Source: an uncultured Paracoccaceae bacterium (GTDB lineage Bacteria; Pseudomonadota; Alphaproteobacteria; Rhodobacterales; Rhodobacteraceae). Taken from it: DNA of 50,453 bases. The notes beneath the pieces are model-generated. The model was given only the letters and a program-made list of their open reading frames with translations, did not search any database and had not been told where the DNA came from. Shown here piece after piece: positions 13,030 to 50,453 of this stretch (positions are counted from its first letter, which is position 1; every line of letters starts with the position of its first letter). Made by a program: the position numbers and the translations under genes. The stretch is taken from contig CAMZLM010000022.1 of NCBI GenBank assembly GCA_947311485.1, forward strand, positions 1 through 50,453, in the 5' to 3' direction.

Positions 13030-14445
13030 ATGGAACAGGCCCCCCGCAGCATATTTGACAATTCCGCCCGCAGTGAATGGGTCCGAATGCGCACGCTTTT
13101 GCTGTTGCGGTGGCTCGCGGTGGCAGGACAGACCCTTGCAGTATTTGTCGGGGTGTATTTTCTGGAACTGCGCCTGAATGTCGGCTTGTGTATGCTGACG
13201 ATCGGTACCTCTGTTATTTTCAACCTGATTTCGATTTTCGTTTTACCAGAGAGCAAACGCCTCTCCCAACGCCAAACCACATTTTCGTTGCTGTTCGATC
13301 TGGGGCAACTGGTATTTTTGCTGTATCTGAATGGCGGGCTGAACAACCCCTTTGCCGTATTGATTTTGGCCCCCGTTACGATTTCGGCAACCGCCCTGAA
13401 ACGCAATGCTACGCTTTTGGTCGCAGGGGGGGCGATACTGTCGATTACGCTGTTGGCCCTGGATTACATCCCCTTGCAATCAGTTACCGGCCAGCTGTTG
13501 GAATTGCCCGACCTGTATATAGGTGGCACATGGGCCGCGTTGATTATTGGCGTTGTCTTTTTATCGGCCTATGCCCGCCGTGTGACGGTTGAAACCTTCA
13601 CCATGTCACAGGCCCTTGCCGCAACCCAAATGGCCATGGCGCGCGAACACGAACTGTCAATGCTTGGCGGTGTGGTTGCCGCGGCAGCCCATGAAATGGG
13701 AACACCGCTCGCCACGATCAAGCTGGTGGCGAGCGAATTGGAAGACGATTTAAAGGATCAGCCGGAGCTGCAAGAAGACGTAAAGCTGATCAACGAGCAA
13801 ACCGACCGGCTGCGCCAGATTTTGCGCGATATGGGGCAGGCGGGCAAAGAGGATATGTTAATCAAAAAGACCCCGATTACCAGTCTTGTACAAACAGCCG
13901 CAGAACCGCACGAAAACCGCGGCAAGGAAATCCATTTTCTGGCTAATGGGGAAACAGATTTCTCGGCTCTGGATGACATCCCGTTTGTGAACAACAGCCT
14001 TGAAATCATCCACGGCATTCGCAACCTCATTCAGAATGCAGTGGATTTTTCCGAATCAACCGTATGGGTGCAATCCGTATGGACCGATAAATCCATTCGG
14101 GTTTTGATCGGGGATAATGGCAAAGGCTATCCTGTAGAACTGCTTGGGCGCATCGGGGAACCCTATTTGGGCAAACGCTACAGCAAAGAGACCGGACAGC
14201 CGAATCGTCCGGGGTATGAAGGCATGGGGCTGGGTCTGTTCATTGCCAAAACCATGCTGGAACGTACTGGCGCGCAGCTGACCTTTGCCAATGCGGCAAT
14301 GGACGGGTACGTCAATGTCGGACAAAACAGATATTTGCGCAGTATGGTGGGCGTAACAGGTGCGGTTGTGAATGTCCGGTGGCAGCGCGAGCATATTGAA
14401 CGCGCGCGGGGCGGGGCTTTGGCACCAAACCCCCAAGTAAAATAG
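13030..14445 (+). CDS. regB: Sensor histidine kinase RegB/PrrB/ActS (redox cysteine replaced by Leu)
   Basis: Inner-membrane histidine kinase that phosphorylates RegA according to redox state. About six membrane segments occupy residues 22-183. The quinone-binding heptapeptide GGxxNPF is intact at 102-108. The H-box has phospho-acceptor H221 (AAHEMGTPLATI), and the ATPase domain shows N-box NLIQNAVDF, then GDNGKGYP and GMGLGLFIAK. The residue matching the redox-active C265 of R. capsulatus RegB is L261 (codon CTG at 13810-13812, context DRLRQILRDMG). The start is taken at ATG 13030 (471 residues); a GTG at 13021 is possible, and no strong ribosome site is visible for either. Confidence 0.95.
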   Translation: MEQAPRSIFDNSARSEWVRMRTLLLLRWLAVAGQTLAVFVGVYFLELRLNVGLCMLTIGTSVIFNLISIFVLPESKRLSQRQTTFSLLFDLGQLVFLLYLNGGLNNPFAVLILAPVTISATALKRNATLLVAGGAILSITLLALDYIPLQSVTGQLLELPDLYIGGTWAALIIGVVFLSAYARRVTVETFTMSQALAATQMAMAREHELSMLGGVVAAAAHEMGTPLATIKLVASELEDDLKDQPELQEDVKLINEQTDRLRQILRDMGQAGKEDMLIKKTPITSLVQTAAEPHENRGKEIHFLANGETDFSALDDIPFVNNSLEIIHGIRNLIQNAVDFSESTVWVQSVWTDKSIRVLIGDNGKGYPVELLGRIGEPYLGKRYSKETGQPNRPGYEGMGLGLFIAKTMLERTGAQLTFANAAMDGYVNVGQNRYLRSMVGVTGAVVNVRWQREHIERARGGALAPNPQVK

Positions 14446-25034: not shown

Positions 25035-25863
25035 AATCCACCACCGCACCGGTCACCTGATCGGCGTGGGTATAGGCAAGGCCGTGGCCTGCCCTGGACA
25101 CCACAACAATCTGCGCTTGCGGCACCCGCTGGCGCAGAATTTCGGCACTGGCAACCGGAATGACCGTATCCTTTTCACCGAAAATCGCCAATGTCGGCAG
25201 CCCCGCCTTGGTCAGTTTTTCATAGGCCGGCCGCAAATCCGTGCGGATCACATGGCGCAGGCTGCTAAGCACGGCCGCAGCAAAGGCCGGCTGGCGGGTT
25301 TCGGCAATCTGCATGTCGATCATGACAGAATCCACACCCTCGTTTCGGGCAGATTCCCGCAGCCCCTTACGAAATCGACGCGGACCAAACAGCCCGAAAA
25401 ACACATCGCCCAGCGCCGGCATCAGCATCAGCGTATTGAAAAAACCGCCCAACGTGTTGCGCAACCCGACCGGAGCCAACAATATCAACCGTCCAACCCG
25501 ATGTGGCTGCAAGGCGGCATAGCTGGTGACAATACCGCCGCCCATGGAATAACCCAACAAGTTGACCGGCCCCTGAATATCCAACACTTCGATCAGTTCA
25601 TCCAGTTCCTTGACGAAAAAATCACTGGTCTGTGCCTGCCCCGGATATTCGGAAAAACCGCGGCCAAAATGGTCAAAGGTCAACACCCGAAACCCCGCCC
25701 GCACCAAATCCGGCAACATATCACGCCAGACAAAACCGGGCGTGCTGAGGCCATGCACCAACACCAGCACCGACCCGTTTTCCGGTCCGTGCCATTGATA
25801 AAATATCCGGCCATTGGACAGATCGGCAAAGCAGCCCTTGTCCCGTGCATATTCAATCGGCAT
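25009..25863 (-). CDS. Alpha/beta-fold hydrolase
   Basis: Cytoplasmic serine hydrolase of 284 residues with no signal peptide. The nucleophile is S106 in GYSMGG, with the acid in FGEKDTVIP and the base in SRAGHGLAYT. The oxyanion-region motif VHGLS is at residues 37-41. The start overlaps the PhyH dioxygenase gene by 11 bases, so it is probably the last gene of the reverse cluster that begins with fghA or yaiI. The substrate cannot be told from the sequence. Confidence 0.85.
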   Translation of the reverse strand: MPIEYARDKGCFADLSNGRIFYQWHGPENGSVLVLVHGLSTPGFVWRDMLPDLVRAGFRVLTFDHFGRGFSEYPGQAQTSDFFVKELDELIEVLDIQGPVNLLGYSMGGGIVTSYAALQPHRVGRLILLAPVGLRNTLGGFFNTLMLMPALGDVFFGLFGPRRFRKGLRESARNEGVDSVMIDMQIAETRQPAFAAAVLSSLRHVIRTDLRPAYEKLTKAGLPTLAIFGEKDTVIPVASAEILRQRVPQAQIVVVSRAGHGLAYTHADQVTGAVVDFIRPAPFE

Positions 25864-26662
25864 TTTCGTCCTTCCAGATCACCGGAAACCAGTCTTCGCG
25901 CAGGCGTTGCCCTGCAACCATATTATGCCCCGGAAACGGCGGAGACGTTCGCCCGGGCCGCTCCACATAGCGCACATCATCGCCCAGCCAGCGCAACGAC
26001 AGGGCGCGGCGTTGCCCCCCGCCCGGATTACCACGCGCACCGTGGACTGTGCGATAGTCAAACAGCACCATATCACCGGGCTGCATCGGCCATTCCAGCA
26101 CGGTGAAACCGTCTGGATCGGCATCGGGATCCGGTACCTCTATCCAGTCCTGTGCGCTGTCATAAAAATCGCTGTTATCCGCCCAACTGACCGGTCGCAC
26201 AGGCTTATTCCAGCGATGCGACCCCGCAATCATCCGTAGAGAAGCATCCGTCACCGGATCAACCGGCATCCACATGCTGACGGTTTGCTCGCCCTCGACA
26301 AAATAATATGGCCCGTCCTGATGCCACGGCGTGGGGGTCGGGGTGCCGCTGGATTTAACCAGCACATGATCATGAAAAATTTGGGCACTGCGGGATTGCA
26401 TCAGGCGCGCGGCAATTTCGGCGGCGGGGCTGTTGCGGATGATATCCTCGAATTCCGGTACCCGCTGCCAGTTGCAATAATCATCAAAGAAACGCCCCTC
26501 GGCCACGCCGTTTTCGCTGGCATAGGGTCCGGGGCTGGCAAGATTGCGTTCAATTCCAGCGACCATCTGGTCCACCCATCCGCTCAGGGCACCCCGGATC
26601 AACACGGCTCCGTCCCTTTGAAAATCCGCAATGTGTTTGGCTGTAACCAGAGGGTTTGTCAT
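25853..26662 (-). CDS. Phytanoyl-CoA dioxygenase (PhyH) family protein
   Basis: Fe(II)/2-oxoglutarate-dependent oxygenase superfamily. The facial triad is visible as H114-x-D116 (PWHQDGP) and H207 (YRTVHGARGNP), with R219 in QRRALSLRW as probable 2-oxoglutarate ligand. It should be an active hydroxylase, substrate unknown; relatives act on fatty acyl-CoA, ectoine and small amino-acid-like compounds. The start at 26662 overlaps the stop of the cyclodeaminase-like gene (ATGA) and is preferred over an ATG at 26680. The 269-residue length is normal. Confidence 0.85.
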   Translation of the reverse strand: MTNPLVTAKHIADFQRDGAVLIRGALSGWVDQMVAGIERNLASPGPYASENGVAEGRFFDDYCNWQRVPEFEDIIRNSPAAEIAARLMQSRSAQIFHDHVLVKSSGTPTPTPWHQDGPYYFVEGEQTVSMWMPVDPVTDASLRMIAGSHRWNKPVRPVSWADNSDFYDSAQDWIEVPDPDADPDGFTVLEWPMQPGDMVLFDYRTVHGARGNPGGGQRRALSLRWLGDDVRYVERPGRTSPPFPGHNMVAGQRLREDWFPVIWKDENAD

Positions 26663-27594
26663 GGATTCAGGGCCTTCCATTTCTGCAGGATGTATTTCGC
26701 GGTCATCAAATCCAGATGTGCGCCGCCGCCGTTCTTGAACAGGGTGATATCATTGCCGGATAACCGCCCCGTGCTGCCTTGTGCCAGATCGTATAAATCA
26801 CCCTGAATATCATCACGAGAGATCACCCCGTTCTGAAGCGGGATTTTCAATTCTCCGATGTGGTCCAGCGTGGTTTCCCGACTGTCGACAAAAATCCGCG
26901 AACGGGTCAGGGCGGTGTCGTCCGCTTCCCGCATGTCAGGACGATAGGCACCGATCAAATCAATATGCTGGCCTGCCTGCAACCAATCCCCATGCAGCAC
27001 CGGATCCGTAGACATGGTGGCACAGCAAACCACATCCGCCGCAGCAACAGCGGCAGGCAGATCGGTAACAGCAGAAATGCTATGGTCCGCTTGCAAAGCC
27101 TTGGCGAACGCCACCGCCTTTGACGGCGTTCGGTTCCAGACGCTAAAGTCCAGCCCGTCAAAAGCAGAACCATAGGCCGACACCAGATTGGCCCCGACCG
27201 TACCAGCCCCGATGATCAGAACCTTGCGAATATCCTTGCGGGCCAACAACCGCGCCCCGAGCAGGCTATCACCTGCGGTTTTCCATTTGGTCACCAGATG
27301 AAAGTCGATCACCGCTTCCAACACGCCGGTATCATCGGCAAAAACCATCACCCCGCCATGGATCATCGGCAGGCCCTTGCCCACATTCGACGGTACGATT
27401 GTGGCGCTTTTTACCGCAACCCCCAAACCGTCAATCCATGCGGCACGCGACAGCAGGGTATCATCACCCCGATAGGCAAAACCATCGGCGATGCTCGGGG
27501 CTGCCAGCCGATGACCGGCCAACATTGCATCCGTGACGCCCTGCCAATCCAGCATGGGGTCCATTTCGTCAAAACCGATAAAGGGGATTTGCAT
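26659..27594 (-). CDS. Ornithine cyclodeaminase / mu-crystallin family protein
   Basis: NAD(P)-dependent enzyme family that includes ornithine cyclodeaminase, alanine dehydrogenase and imine reductases. The Rossmann motif GAGTVG is at residues 129-134, and K62 in the VKSATIVP segment corresponds to a substrate-contacting lysine. The arginine usually found in the TxxRTA motif is lysine here (K105, in VTKWKTAGDS), so the carboxylate contact may differ. The 311-residue length is normal. The ATG directly abuts the stop of the HAD gene and the end overlaps the PhyH gene. The true substrate is unknown; 'ornithine' is only the family name. Confidence 0.84.
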   Translation of the reverse strand: MQIPFIGFDEMDPMLDWQGVTDAMLAGHRLAAPSIADGFAYRGDDTLLSRAAWIDGLGVAVKSATIVPSNVGKGLPMIHGGVMVFADDTGVLEAVIDFHLVTKWKTAGDSLLGARLLARKDIRKVLIIGAGTVGANLVSAYGSAFDGLDFSVWNRTPSKAVAFAKALQADHSISAVTDLPAAVAAADVVCCATMSTDPVLHGDWLQAGQHIDLIGAYRPDMREADDTALTRSRIFVDSRETTLDHIGELKIPLQNGVISRDDIQGDLYDLAQGSTGRLSGNDITLFKNGGGAHLDLMTAKYILQKWKALNP

Positions 27595-45512: not shown

Positions 45513-46345
45513 TCCGCCAGTACCGTTTCACGCAAATCGGAATCGACCTCGGGTTTTATGCCAAACCACTGTTGAAACCCCGGAACTGCCTGATGCAGCA
45601 GCATACCCAACCCGTCCACGGTCATCAAACCGCGTTGTTCCGCCTGTAGCAACAAATCCGTTTTGAGCGGACTGTAAACAATATCCGTTACCAATGATCC
45701 GGCAGCCGCTTTTGCCAAGGAAAATTCCAGATGCGGTTGCCCGACCATGCCCAAGGATGTGGTATTCACAATCGTTGCGGCATCCGCGATAACTTCCGGT
45801 GCGTCGGCCCAATTGCAAACCTCGACCCGCCCGCCAAAGTGCTCTTGAAGCACTTCCGCCCGCATGCGTGTCCGGTTTGCCAGAATGACCTTTGGCGCAC
45901 CTTCGCCAAGCAACGACGAAATCACCGCCCGCGCAGCACCGCCAGCCCCCAAAACAACGGCTGTTCCGGTGGCGGGATCCCATGCCGGTTGTCCCTGACG
46001 CAGATTATTGATGAACCCGATCCCGTCGGTATTATCCGCATAAATTCCGCCATCCGCCGTAAAGGAAATCGTGTTTGCGGCCCCGATCAAAGCCGCCCGA
46101 TCACTAACCGATGTGGCCATCGCCAAAACCGTTTCCTTATAAGGAATCGTTACATTCACCCCGACAAAGCCCAGTTTTGGCATCGACCGCAGTGCGGTTT
46201 CAAATTCCTGCAGACGAATACCGACGGGAACATAGTGTCCCTGAATACCGTATTTTTTCAACCAGTACCCATGAATACGCGGCGATTTGCTATGCGCGAT
46301 CGGCCAACCAACCACACCGGCAAGAGGAATTCGTTCGGGGCTCAT
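45509..46345 (-). CDS. aroE: Shikimate dehydrogenase
   Basis: Reduces 3-dehydroshikimate to shikimate with NADPH in aromatic amino acid synthesis. The substrate site GWPIAHSKSP, catalytic K70 in VTIPYK, the paired aspartate in DNTDGIGF, and the NADP motif GAGGAARA are all present. 278 residues. It overlaps both maf and coaE by four bases. Confidence 0.96.
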   Translation of the reverse strand: MSPERIPLAGVVGWPIAHSKSPRIHGYWLKKYGIQGHYVPVGIRLQEFETALRSMPKLGFVGVNVTIPYKETVLAMATSVSDRAALIGAANTISFTADGGIYADNTDGIGFINNLRQGQPAWDPATGTAVVLGAGGAARAVISSLLGEGAPKVILANRTRMRAEVLQEHFGGRVEVCNWADAPEVIADAATIVNTTSLGMVGQPHLEFSLAKAAAGSLVTDIVYSPLKTDLLLQAEQRGLMTVDGLGMLLHQAVPGFQQWFGIKPEVDSDLRETVLAE

Positions 46346-46941
46346 GTGGGTAATACTCCTCTGCTTCGCAAAAATCCGAGCACTTCAATCAACGGCAGAC
46401 CAAGAATCGTAAAATAATCGCCCTGCACCTGCGAAAACAATTGTACACCCAGCGATTCCAATTTGTAACAGCCAACCGTTGTCAGGACATCATCGCCCAT
46501 GTCCTCTATATATTTCAGCAAGAATTCATCCGAAAAATCCCGCATAGCCAGCTGCGCCCGCCCAATATGCCGCCAAACCGGGGTGCCATCCTCAAAAATT
46601 ACCACCGCCGAGAGCAGTTGATGCCCTTTGCCCCGCAGATTTTTAAGCTGTGCGATGGCATCGGCTTTGTCATCTGGTTTGCTGTAAAGCTGCCCCTCGC
46701 AAACCAGAACCTGATCGGCCGCAATCACGATGGAATCAGGATTGGACCGCGCCACCCGCATTCCCTTATACTGCGCCAAAGTATCCGCAATATCCCGTGG
46801 CTTGGCCTGTTCTGCCAGCAACGCCGCCATGATCGCCGGTTCATCCACCGGAGAAGTTTTGACCGTTACCGCCACACCGGCCCCCAGCAACAGCTGTTTT
46901 CGAATGGCAGAACCTGACGCGAGTAGAACTTCAACGGACAT
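46342..46941 (-). CDS. maf: Maf family nucleoside triphosphate pyrophosphatase
   Basis: Hydrolyses non-standard or selected NTPs/dNTPs to monophosphates, a house-cleaning role also linked with division arrest. The N-terminal signature LLASGSAIRKQLL and the conserved aspartate in IVIAADQVLV are seen. 199 residues. It has an AGGAAAG ribosome site. Its start codon lies in a DnaA-box-like sequence (46939-46947), at the left edge of the origin region. Family is certain; the preferred nucleotide is not. Confidence 0.93.
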   Translation of the reverse strand: MSVEVLLASGSAIRKQLLLGAGVAVTVKTSPVDEPAIMAALLAEQAKPRDIADTLAQYKGMRVARSNPDSIVIAADQVLVCEGQLYSKPDDKADAIAQLKNLRGKGHQLLSAVVIFEDGTPVWRHIGRAQLAMRDFSDEFLLKYIEDMGDDVLTTVGCYKLESLGVQLFSQVQGDYFTILGLPLIEVLGFLRSRGVLPT

Positions 46942-46992
46942 GGATAACTTTCCTAAGGGGTCGGGATAACTGTGTAGAAGGTATATAACTAT

Positions 46993-47001
46993 TGTGGATA
47001 A
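46993..47001 (-). promoter_or_regulatory. DnaA box, perfect (TTATCCACA on the reverse strand)
   Basis: An exact 9/9 match to the bacterial DnaA box, in reverse orientation, in the left half of the predicted origin. Confidence 0.88.
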
Positions 47002-47111
47002 CTTTGCAGCAAAAGCGGTTTTCGATCAGAATTCAGAAAAAAGCAGTCTTATTCAGAATCCACGCCTGTTTAATCCCCAGAGGGAAAACACAAATTCTTT
47101 AGTCCCCATTC

Positions 47112-47120
47112 TGTGGACAA
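47112..47120 (-). promoter_or_regulatory. DnaA box, one mismatch (TTGTCCACA)
   Basis: Matches the DnaA consensus at 8 of 9 positions on the reverse strand. It faces the perfect forward box 17 bases further on. Confidence 0.7.
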
Positions 47121-47137
47121 GAAAAGTTATTCCGGTT

Positions 47138-47146
47138 TTATCCACA
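47138..47146 (+). promoter_or_regulatory. DnaA box, perfect (TTATCCACA)
   Basis: An exact 9/9 match, immediately left of the AT-rich stretch at 47159-47220, which is a typical place for the box next to the unwinding element. Confidence 0.88.
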
Positions 47147-47255
47147 GAAGTATAAGTTCTTAACTGATTGATCTTATTTACTATTATTAGTTATACTTTC
47201 ACGGTATAAAATTTATTCCAGATGTTGAAAACCGGATTTTTAGGGGATTGTTTTT

Positions 47256-47264
47256 TAATCCACA
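47256..47264 (+). promoter_or_regulatory. DnaA box, one mismatch (TAATCCACA)
   Basis: 8 of 9 positions match, to the right of the AT-rich stretch. Confidence 0.65.
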
Positions 47265-47369
47265 GAGTTTGGTCTGCCTACATCAAATACTACTTTTTAA
47301 ATTTCATTTATTTATATTGTATATAGGACGGGCATAGCGCAAACCTGCTTTGAAAACGGGAAACACTCA

Positions 47370-47822
47370 ATGACAGATCTATTCATCAATTATTACCCTT
47401 GGGTAAAAACTCTGCATATTATTTCTGTGATATCGTGGATGGCCGGTTTGCTGTATTTACCGCGCTTGTTTGTGAACCACGTACAGTATGCCCCTGTGGG
47501 GTCTGAAACCTCCGAGATTTTCAAAGGCATGGAATATCGCTTGCTGCGCTACATCATGAATCCGGCAATGATTGCGACTTGGCTGTTCGGATTGATTTTG
47601 GCGGGAACACCCGGGATCGTTGATTGGACGTCCGGTTATCCCTGGGTCAAGCTGGTGATGATTTCCGGTATGACCGTCTTTCATATGTGGTTATCCAAGC
47701 GGCGCAAGGATTTTGATGCGGATCGGAATAGCCTGTCATCCAAGGCCTATCGCATTGCCAATGAAATTCCGACTTTGATGATGATCGTGATTGTTATCAT
47801 GGTCGTTGTGCGCCCGTTTTAG
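47370..47822 (+). CDS. hemJ: Protoporphyrinogen IX oxidase HemJ
   Basis: Small membrane enzyme that oxidises protoporphyrinogen IX to protoporphyrin IX, the step before iron insertion, in bacteria lacking HemG or the FAD-type enzyme. Four membrane helices are visible in 150 residues. The conserved histidine in KTLHIISVISWMAGLLYLPRLF is the probable haem ligand, and a conserved lysine lies in WVKLVM. Often annotated 'CopD family' because of distant similarity. It is the first gene to the right of the predicted oriC, followed by rho after 127 bp. Confidence 0.92.
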   Translation: MTDLFINYYPWVKTLHIISVISWMAGLLYLPRLFVNHVQYAPVGSETSEIFKGMEYRLLRYIMNPAMIATWLFGLILAGTPGIVDWTSGYPWVKLVMISGMTVFHMWLSKRRKDFDADRNSLSSKAYRIANEIPTLMMIVIVIMVVVRPF

Positions 47823-47897: not shown

Positions 47898-47949
47898 CTC
47901 AATAATACTATGAAAGAACGCCGGCTTGTTTCGGCGGCAGGTGATATTT

Positions 47950-49221
47950 ATGGAACAGGAAAAAATCTTTCTGTCTGAACTCAAGGCCAAGGCACCAGCA
48001 GATTTGTTGAAATTTGCTGAAGAGCTTGAAATTGAAAATGCGTCAACCATGCGCAAAGGCGACATGATGTTTGCCATTTTGAAAGAGATGGCCGACGATG
48101 GTGCCGAAATTTTCGGTGACGGTGTTGTCGAAGTTCTACAAGACGGTTTCGGTTTTCTGCGTTCTCCAGAGGCAAACTATCTGCCCGGTCCCGAGGATAT
48201 TTACGTAAGCCCGGAAATGATCCGCAAACACTCGCTGCGTACAGGCGATACTGTGGAAGGTTTGATTCGCGCCCCTGAACAGGGCGAGCGTTATTTTGGC
48301 CTGACCAAGGTTTCCACGATCAATTTTTCCGATCCAGAAGACGTTAAACACAAGGTTCACTTTGATAACCTGACCCCGCTGTATCCCGATGAGCGCCTGA
48401 AGATGGAAGTCGAAGACCCGACCATCAAGGATAAATCCGCCCGCGTGATTGATCTGGTTGCGCCGATTGGTAAAGGCCAGCGTTGTCTGGTTGTTGCCCC
48501 GCCACGGACCGGTAAAACCGTGATCCTGCAAAACATCGCCAATTCGATCGAGAAAAACCATCCGGAATGCTATCTGATCGTGTTGCTGATCGATGAACGC
48601 CCCGAAGAAGTTACCGACATGCAGCGTTCGGTCAAAGGCGAGGTTGTTTCCTCGACATTTGATGAACCGGCCACGCGTCACGTTGCTGTTTCCGAAATGG
48701 TAATCGAAAAGGCCAAGCGCCTTGTGGAACACAAACGCGATGTTGTGATCCTGCTCGACTCCATCACACGCCTTGGACGCGCCTATAACACGGTTGTGCC
48801 GTCCTCTGGCAAGGTTCTGACCGGTGGTGTGGATGCCAACGCCCTGCAGCGCCCCAAACGTTTCTTTGGTGCTGCGCGTAACATCGAGGAAGGCGGCTCC
48901 CTGACGATCATTTCCACGGCATTGATTGATACGGGTTCACGCATGGATGAAGTGATCTTTGAGGAATTCAAAGGGACGGGTAACTCTGAAATTGTTCTGG
49001 ATCGCAAGATCGCCGACAAACGGGTTTATCCAGCCATCGACATTCTGAAATCCGGCACCCGTAAAGAGGAACTGCTGGTGGATAAGGGCGATCTGACCAA
49101 AACCTATGTGTTGCGCCGGATTCTAAACCCGATGGGGACAACGGACGCGATCGAATTCCTGCTTGGCAAGCTAAAGCAAACCAAATCTAACCAGGAATTC
49201 TTTGATTCGATGAATAGCTAA
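47950..49221 (+). CDS. rho: Transcription termination factor Rho
   Basis: Hexameric RNA-dependent ATPase that ends transcription. The N-terminal Rho domain and the cold-shock-like RNA-binding domain ([26 protein letters not shown] region) lead to the ATPase core with Walker A PPRTGKT near residues 184-190, Q-loop and R-loop regions ([24 protein letters not shown] area). ATG 47950 with an AGGTGA site gives 423 residues, the normal size; the ATG at 47926 is rejected. mnmE follows after 29 bp. Confidence 0.97.
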
Positions 49222-49250: not shown

Positions 49251-50453
49251 ATGAATGAAACCATTTTTGCCTTGGCCACGGCCAAAGGCAGGGCCGGAAT
49301 TGCGGTAATTCGCCTTTCCGGCTCTTTGGCATTTGAAATTGCGCAAAAAATTATCGGCAGTCCGGTGATACCACGCCGGCCGATGCTGCGCCGGTTGATG
49401 TCTGATGCAGGGGTTATTCTGGACGAAGCGCTGGTTTTGGCGTTTGAGAACGGCGCGAGCTTTACCGGCGAGGATGTTGTCGAGTTTCAATGCCACGGCA
49501 GCCCGGCTGTGGTGGATGCTTTGATCAAAGAACTGTCCAACCATCTGGCACGGTTGGCTGAACCCGGGGAATTTACCCGTCGGGCCTTGGAAAACGGATG
49601 TTTGGATCTCAGTCAGGTAGAAGGTTTGGCAGATCTGCTAGAGGCCGAAACCGAGGCCCAGCGGGTACAGGCTTTTCGGATCATGCGCGGGGCTTTGTCC
49701 AACAAGGTGGATGTTTGGCGCAATGACCTGATCCGTGCAGCGGCCCTGATAGAAGCCACAATTGATTTTGCAGACGAAGACGTACCGATCGATGTGTCAC
49801 CCGAGGTTCGGGAACTGATTGCCAAGGTTAAAACTGATCTGAAAAAAGAAATCGATGGCAGCTATGTTGCTGAACGTATCCGCGATGGTTTCGAGGTCGC
49901 CATTGTCGGGCCGCCGAATATTGGCAAGTCAACATTGCTGAATACGCTTGCCGGTCGGGAGGCCGCGATTACCTCTGAAATCGCGGGCACCACACGCGAT
50001 GTGATCGAGGTCCGCATGGACATCAAAGGCCTGCCCGTAACCCTGCTTGATACGGCCGGATTACGCGAAACAGATGATCGGGTTGAATCTCTTGGCATTG
50101 CATTGGCCAAGAAGCGGGCGCAACAGGCGGATTTGCGTGTCTTTTTGATCGACGGGGTCAACATGGGTGATCTGGATTTGCGGCCAAGCGGTGAAGATAT
50201 TGTCGTAACCGGCAAGGCAGATTTATCATCGAACACGTCAGGGGATGCAATTTCCAGCGTTTCAGGGCAGGGGATTGATCACCTGATTGAACGGATCGCG
50301 ACCGTTCTGGGGCAACGATCCGCGCTTGCCCAGGATGCGGTGCGGCAACGTCACCGTATTGCCATGACACAGTCGCTGGGCTATCTGGCATCAGCAGAAG
50401 ACCTGCTGGATGATTACCTCGACATATCCGAGGTCATCGCCTTGGAGCTAAAC
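49251..50453 (+). CDS. mnmE: tRNA uridine-5-carboxymethylaminomethyl(34) synthesis GTPase MnmE (3' end missing)
   Basis: GTPase that, with MnmG, modifies the wobble uridine of several tRNAs. 401 codons are open to the edge of the window, so the last 25-30 residues, including the catalytic C-terminal cysteine motif, lie outside. The N-terminal tetrahydrofolate-binding domain (TIFALATAKGRAGIAVIRLSG region) is intact. G1 is GPPNIGKS at 220-227, G2 lies in EIAGTTRDVIE, and G3 is DTAGLRET. The expected NKxD G4 motif reads G321-K-A-D324. An AAAGGG site stands seven bases before the ATG. Confidence 0.95.
   Translation, partial: MNETIFALATAKGRAGIAVIRLSGSLAFEIAQKIIGSPVIPRRPMLRRLMSDAGVILDEALVLAFENGASFTGEDVVEFQCHGSPAVVDALIKELSNHLARLAEPGEFTRRALENGCLDLSQVEGLADLLEAETEAQRVQAFRIMRGALSNKVDVWRNDLIRAAALIEATIDFADEDVPIDVSPEVRELIAKVKTDLKKEIDGSYVAERIRDGFEVAIVGPPNIGKSTLLNTLAGREAAITSEIAGTTRDVIEVRMDIKGLPVTLLDTAGLRETDDRVESLGIALAKKRAQQADLRVFLIDGVNMGDLDLRPSGEDIVVTGKADLSSNTSGDAISSVSGQGIDHLIERIATVLGQRSALAQDAVRQRHRIAMTQSLGYLASAEDLLDDYLDISEVIALELN

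Follow-up and report, generated by a model that had tools for sequence, protein, structure and literature searches.

A probable chromosomal replication origin between maf and hemJ in a Rhodobacteraceae bacterium, with recurring DnaA box slots and a candidate opening element

In the 50,453-nucleotide stretch of DNA analysed here (the window), maf and hemJ are separated by a gap of 428 bp (positions 46942-47369) that is very probably the site where DnaA initiates replication of the main chromosome in a Rhodobacteraceae bacterium. This reading, put forward in a preliminary description of the window, is supported by DnaA boxes conserved in position in 56 other gaps, by the presence of parS no more than 8.2 kb away in each of 16 relatives, and by a GC skew that fits the locus in three of five sampled relatives. 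In its place and its neighbours the arrangement maf-gap-hemJ is an ordinary one that is common in Rhodobacteraceae. A conserved candidate opening element on the hemJ side is the one fresh lead at this otherwise ordinary origin.

Results

Features of the maf-hemJ gap

The AT content of the gap is 65.0% and the GC content of the window as a whole 54.4%, in agreement with the gap's earlier description as AT-rich, and gene direction splits at this place as had been noted. In a Pfam check of the flanking genes, Maf (PF02545), AroE and CoaE are read leftwards, and HemJ (PF03653), Rho and MnmE rightwards (Table 1); the window extends only 3.1 kb to the right of the gap. A crude tiling of open reading frames flagged a second non-coding gap at 26107-26658. 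A 275-aa open frame (25853-26680, minus strand) spans this sole rival, and the maf-hemJ gap thus remains the only one above 400 bp. Searches of the whole window with Rfam (at the gathering threshold) and for tRNA genes gave no hit.

Table 1. Features of the maf-hemJ region of the window, and recurring DnaA box slots in the gaps of relatives
Feature	Position	Strand	Remark
maf, left flank	46342..46941	-	PF02545
Probable oriC between maf and hemJ	46942..47369	.	428 bp, 65% AT
DnaA box, perfect TTATCCACA	46993..47001	-	recurring maf-side slot, -377 from hemJ start
Weak DnaA-box-like site TAATCCCCA	47071..47079	+	2 mismatches; score 12.5, seventh in window by relatives-trained matrix
DnaA box TTGTCCACA, 1 mismatch	47112..47120	-	recurring slot, -258 from hemJ start
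DnaA box, perfect TTATCCACA	47138..47146	+	recurring slot, -232 from hemJ start
DnaA box TAATCCACA, 1 mismatch	47256..47264	+	hemJ-side slot, -114 from hemJ start
Element CCTACATCAAATACTACTTT, 14/20 to CCTACATCATCATCATCTTT	47277..47296	+	12 bp after box TAATCCACA; candidate DnaA single-strand binding or opening element
Most AT-rich stretch of gap	47289..47326	.	candidate duplex unwinding element
hemJ, right flank	47370..47822	+	PF03653, UPF0093
rho	47926..49221	+	start is the tool's choice; 47953 also possible
mnmE	49251..50453	+	truncated by window end
Box slot, maf side	-415 to -368 from hemJ start	-	24/56 gaps
Box slot	-280 to -240 from hemJ start	-	16/56 gaps
Box slot, middle	-240 to -203 from hemJ start	+	26/56 gaps
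Box slot	-125 to -95 from hemJ start	-	17/56 gaps
Box slot, hemJ side	-130 to -72 from hemJ start	+	35/56 gaps

DnaA boxes in the gap

The two perfect and two one-mismatch DnaA boxes previously reported are all located in the gap. Allowing up to one mismatch, the whole window contains 18 boxes, four of which are these, and neither of its two perfect boxes lies outside the gap. On average 0.15 such boxes occur in dinucleotide shuffles of the gap, and four were reached in none of 5000. When the window is scored with a matrix trained on the 56 other gaps, with the window's own gap excluded, these four boxes are the top four of the 50 kb; the fourth scores 14.6 and the next-best site, outside the gap, 14.2. 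A fifth site in the gap, at 47071-47079, ranks seventh. A count of perfect boxes over the 222 contigs (3.07 Mb) of the draft genome gives 43, versus nine for a reversed control pattern. Apart from the pair in the gap, 145 bp apart, only one pair of perfect boxes shares a contig, at a distance of 9.7 kb. At up to one mismatch the draft holds 810 boxes versus 417 reversed-control sites, again an excess over the control. With 810 sites, the chance of a four-box cluster at this stringency somewhere in the genome is ~0.04 (Poisson, non-overlapping 428-bp windows). The cluster by itself is therefore not very improbable genome-wide, and it is conservation in relatives that carries weight; taken alone, the boxes are suggestive of an origin without being decisive.

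Conservation of the gap and its boxes in relatives

From 133 loci, 91 distinct maf-hemJ intervals were defined, loci with no maf match, another gene order or an identical interval having been dropped. The intervals fall between 315 and 498 bp in 58 cases and between 1.2 and 8.2 kb in the other 33. One short gap (L007), more than 85% identical to another, was removed, leaving 57 that include the window's own and 56 others. Their length is kept (median 408, interquartile range 394-414). With up to one mismatch allowed, the 56 other gaps contain 150 boxes, versus a shuffle mean of 6.6 (SD 2.4, with a maximum of 12 over 100 rounds); perfect boxes number 26, versus a mean of 0.22. The boxes recur in strand-specific slots (Table 1) in each of which fewer than 0.5 would be expected, the slot borders having been set after the positions were seen. 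Four of the five slots are occupied in the window's gap, and TAATCCACA is the commonest box form in the hemJ-side slot among relatives. Three of the 56 gaps (L013, L022 and L131) hold no box with up to one mismatch.

By HemJ identity, the loci L003 ('Amylibacter sp.', 92%) and L075 ('Rhodobacteraceae bacterium', 77%) stand close to the window, and in G120, a genome assigned to the same genus as the window, HemJ identity is just 52%, far below both.

A conserved element on the hemJ side

Alignment of 12 gaps revealed a conserved block directly after the hemJ-side box, consisting of a CCTACATCATCATC element followed by AT-rich DNA. The family form of this element, CCTACATCATCATCATCTTT, is matched at 14 or more of 20 positions in 41 of the 57 gaps (window included) versus 1.2% of shuffles, a contrast that is flattering because the consensus was derived from the same gaps. 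In the window, 30-bp segments starting at 47289-47297 reach 93% AT and adjoin the boxes. Among the 46 gaps with at least 13 of 20 matches, the distance from the end of the best box to the element is 12 bp in 16, 3 bp in 13 and another value in 17, which suggests one or two tandem boxes plus a 3-bp spacer. In the 33 longer intervals, the 20-mer with a box 12 bp before it is recognisable by eye in a few (L032, L035, L061 and L100) and not in most. The matching place in L032 reads TACTACTACTACTAC. A narrow literature search found no paper describing the CCTACATCATCATC element, which does not imply its absence from print.

parS sites, and the promoter alternative

With up to one mismatch allowed, each of the 16 relatives has two or more parS sites near hemJ, at distances of 2.7-8.2 kb; elsewhere in these genomes, one further site is found in G123 and two in G184. 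The window's own genome has a single parS, inside rsmG and beside parA and parB on contig C108. Genome G120 has the order hemJ-rho-mnmE-mnmG-rsmG-parA-parB (gene names read from open reading frames) and three parS sites, and by synteny with this genome the window's own parS, parA and parB would lie near the gap. The G120 sites are at 13421, 13501 and 15415 of locus L114, and the second falls in the first codons of mnmG, encoding FHVKH.

These observations bear on whether the gap is a mere divergent promoter region for maf and hemJ, its boxes being operators for DnaA-regulated transcription. The two gene starts do diverge, and the gap contains three weak promoter-like matches, a number near the chance level seen in shuffles (1.5, SD 1.2); a terminator scan gave no match. 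In our judgement, the number and recurrence of boxes, the kept length, the conserved AT-rich end and the parS sites exceed what a promoter needs, and we regard this explanation as very improbable.

GC skew and the position of dnaA

The draft of the window's own genome, in 222 contigs, does not allow a whole-chromosome skew. In each of five relatives, skew was computed from 21 to 35 samples 20 kb long, which in some genomes are spaced more closely around the locus; two of the G034 samples overlap. The model places the origin at the maf-hemJ locus and the terminus opposite, and the two halves are compared. The skew fits the locus in G123, G101 and G093 and not in G175 and G034. In G123, 12 of 12 left samples are negative and 9 of 11 right samples positive (P=0.0001), with the best-fit origin 2 kb off the locus. 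The samples with the expected sign number 14 of 20 on the left and 13 of 15 on the right in G101 (P=0.00005, best fit 57 kb off), and 5 of 10 and 10 of 11 in G093 (P=0.003, best fit 22 kb off). The locus is not singled out in G175 (P=0.12) or G034 (P=0.25), where the best-fit turns are 907 and 371 kb away. Within the window, skew is -0.027 over the 46.9 kb left of the gap and +0.073 over the 3.1 kb to its right, and a 6.9-kb stretch of C108, turned to the window's orientation by synteny with G120, has a skew of +0.058. Gene direction alone could explain the positive values of these short right-hand stretches.

The skew also speaks to a reading in which the origin is at or near dnaA, on another contig, and the box cluster of the gap is a DnaA-titration or regulatory site. 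The dnaA gene is a common origin neighbour, and of the 15 relatives that carry it on the same contig as hemJ, 10 have 25-122 kb between the two genes (contigs assumed circular), so that coarse skew is often unable to separate the two places; in G093, where the distance is 25 kb, it cannot. Among the three sampled genomes with a distant dnaA, separation succeeded in one. In G101, with dnaA ~0.5 Mb away, the fit is 0.0234 at maf-hemJ versus 0.0152 at dnaA. In G175 and G034, chosen for a remote dnaA (384 and 633 kb from hemJ), neither place fits well and dnaA is the worse, with a negative fit. The gene is within the first 1 kb of contig 1 in 6 of 17 genomes searched, perhaps just a numbering convention. 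A survey that describes dnaA as not conserved close to ori in Rhodospirillales and Sphingomonadales contrasts these with three other orders including Rhodobacterales, and in this respect implies a dnaA close to ori in the last (PMC8116508). Against this stand the parS sites, at least two of which are near hemJ in every one of the 16 relatives with three in total elsewhere, and the window's own dnaA locus, which has one one-mismatch box in 3.5 kb. Likewise, marker frequency in Hyphomonas neptunium peaks close to hemE, placing its origin near that gene with parAB ~7 kb away (PMC6650430). An origin at dnaA is accordingly considered improbable, and markedly so.

hemE and DUF299

The preliminary description held hemE and the DUF299 regulator gene to be missing, leaving a reduced flanking gene set. 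Both are indeed absent from the flanks of the gap, and DUF299 has no match anywhere in the draft genome; hemE, in contrast, is present in the genome. The last 64 profile positions of its 3' end are found at bases 15-200 of contig C118, at the contig edge. The assembly break thus appears to fall inside hemE. No further fragment was found in the draft, and the rest of the gene is presumably on another contig or in an assembly gap. On C118 (bases 1-1700, L083), the 3' end is beside genes for a TetR-like regulator and a homoserine-dehydrogenase-like protein (names assigned by eye).

Nor is the short gene set peculiar to this genome. Equally short intervals make up 58 of the 91, 8 of the 198 family genomes contain DUF299, and hemE, found in 17 of 17 genomes tested (picked mostly for few contigs, and including the window's own through the fragment), adjoins hemJ only in G093 and G101. 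A lineage-specific loss of hemE and DUF299 from beside oriC would agree with the unmatched DUF299 and with a hemE that is not next to the gap. Given the frequency of the same arrangement in relatives, together with the hemE 3' end on C118 and the presence of hemE in every genome tested, such a loss is extremely unlikely.

The ordinary maf-gap-hemJ arrangement can be set beside loci that retain more of the block. At the outgroup locus L033, both DUF299 (PF03618) and hemE (PF01208) are inside the maf-hemJ interval. The order in G101 is maf-DUF299-gap-hemE-hemJ, G093 retains hemE with DUF299 absent, and L018 retains DUF299 next to hemJ; this mixed retention indicates that the genes were lost or moved piecemeal. 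Gaps still touching one or both genes hold fewer boxes: two in G101 and G093, three in L018 and L033, one in L065 and none in L034.

Discussion

A model of origin opening

In the mechanism we propose, DnaA would bind the boxes of the maf-hemJ gap, four or five in number, and a DnaA-ATP filament, starting at the hemJ-proximal box (47256-47264), would grow across the CCTACATCA element and onto single-stranded DNA. This filament would open the AT-rich stretch at 47289-47326, the predicted place of opening, where helicase would be loaded and from which, if the origin fires in this organism as expected, two forks would depart. Nearby ParB sites, in the window's own genome on another contig and linked by synteny, may help to segregate the new origins. 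A probable origin is thereby placed in a draft of 222 contigs for which a whole-chromosome skew is not computable. The results further suggest that hemE and DUF299 are poorer markers of oriC in Rhodobacteraceae than the arrangement of the boxes and the element on the hemJ side.

Comparison with known origins

Skew, DnaA boxes and parAB proximity were used to locate oriC in 101 Rhodobacteraceae strains, with failure in eight (PMC6699656), and the origins of Rhodobacter sphaeroides were found by cumulative skew and Ori-Finder (PMC6315104). More generally, parAB is close to ori in nearly all genomes analysed in one survey (PMC8116508). The closest counterpart is the oriC adjoining maf that is described, on the basis of DoriC, as conserved in Rhodobacteraceae in a paper on Ketogulonicigenium vulgare (PMC4793288). 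As there, the window's gap adjoins maf; its flank order is conserved, and in the relatives examined here parS lies nearby. Apart from the species, no essential difference from what that paper describes is seen; the recurring box slots and the CCTAC element are added here.

Origin boundaries formed by hemE and COG1806 (DUF299) are described for Caulobacter and Rickettsia, with rearranged boundaries elsewhere (PMC1914354). Sphingomonadaceae oriC adjoins hemE (PMC4741004), and in Methylocystis oriC is predicted away from the dnaA genes (PMC3794950). Like Cori of Caulobacter crescentus as described in PMC1914354, the window's gap contains DnaA boxes and exceeds 400 bp, and the hemE and DUF299 syntenic block is present in outgroups such as L033. 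Unlike Cori, with its hemE/COG1806 borders, the gap is bordered by maf and hemJ, DUF299 being absent and hemE elsewhere. It also differs from Cori in lacking CtrA and IHF consensus matches: no TTAAN7TTAA, TTAACCAT or WATCAANNNNTTR match is found in the gap.

The layout of the basal unwinding system (BUS) of Bacillus subtilis oriC, as given in PMC8287927 and PMC10721633, has a spacer between box and trio that peaks at 10-13 bp and a consensus trio of 3'-GAT-5'. The hemJ-side element resembles this layout in the succession of a box, a short spacer, a trinucleotide-repetitive element that starts with CTA (3'-GAT-5' on the other strand) and AT-rich DNA. It differs in the repeat itself, which is 3'-TAG/GTA-5' in the Rhodobacteraceae family and 3'-GAT-5' in B. 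subtilis. In an approximation of the published DnaA-trio rule, at least three.A. trios were sought within 16 nt of a box, and the longest run in the window is two. Across the 57 gaps, a run of at least three is found after plus-strand boxes in 39 versus 31 for the minus-strand control, and one of at least four in 25 versus 13; the approximated rule hardly separates the two, and BUS membership is therefore not claimed. By analogy, the hemJ-side element may nevertheless work like a BUS. It is conceivable, if rather doubtful, that Rhodobacteraceae origins open by a BUS in which the trinucleotide code is no longer 3'-GAT-5' but has drifted to 3'-TAG/GTA-5' (read on the other strand as CCTACATCATCATCATC), with the CCTACATCAAATACTAC of the window as a degenerate form; Rhodobacteraceae DnaA would then have to capture different bases. 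Through the CCTACATCATCATC element, the reach of the B. subtilis unwinding code into the alphaproteobacteria becomes accessible to a concrete test.
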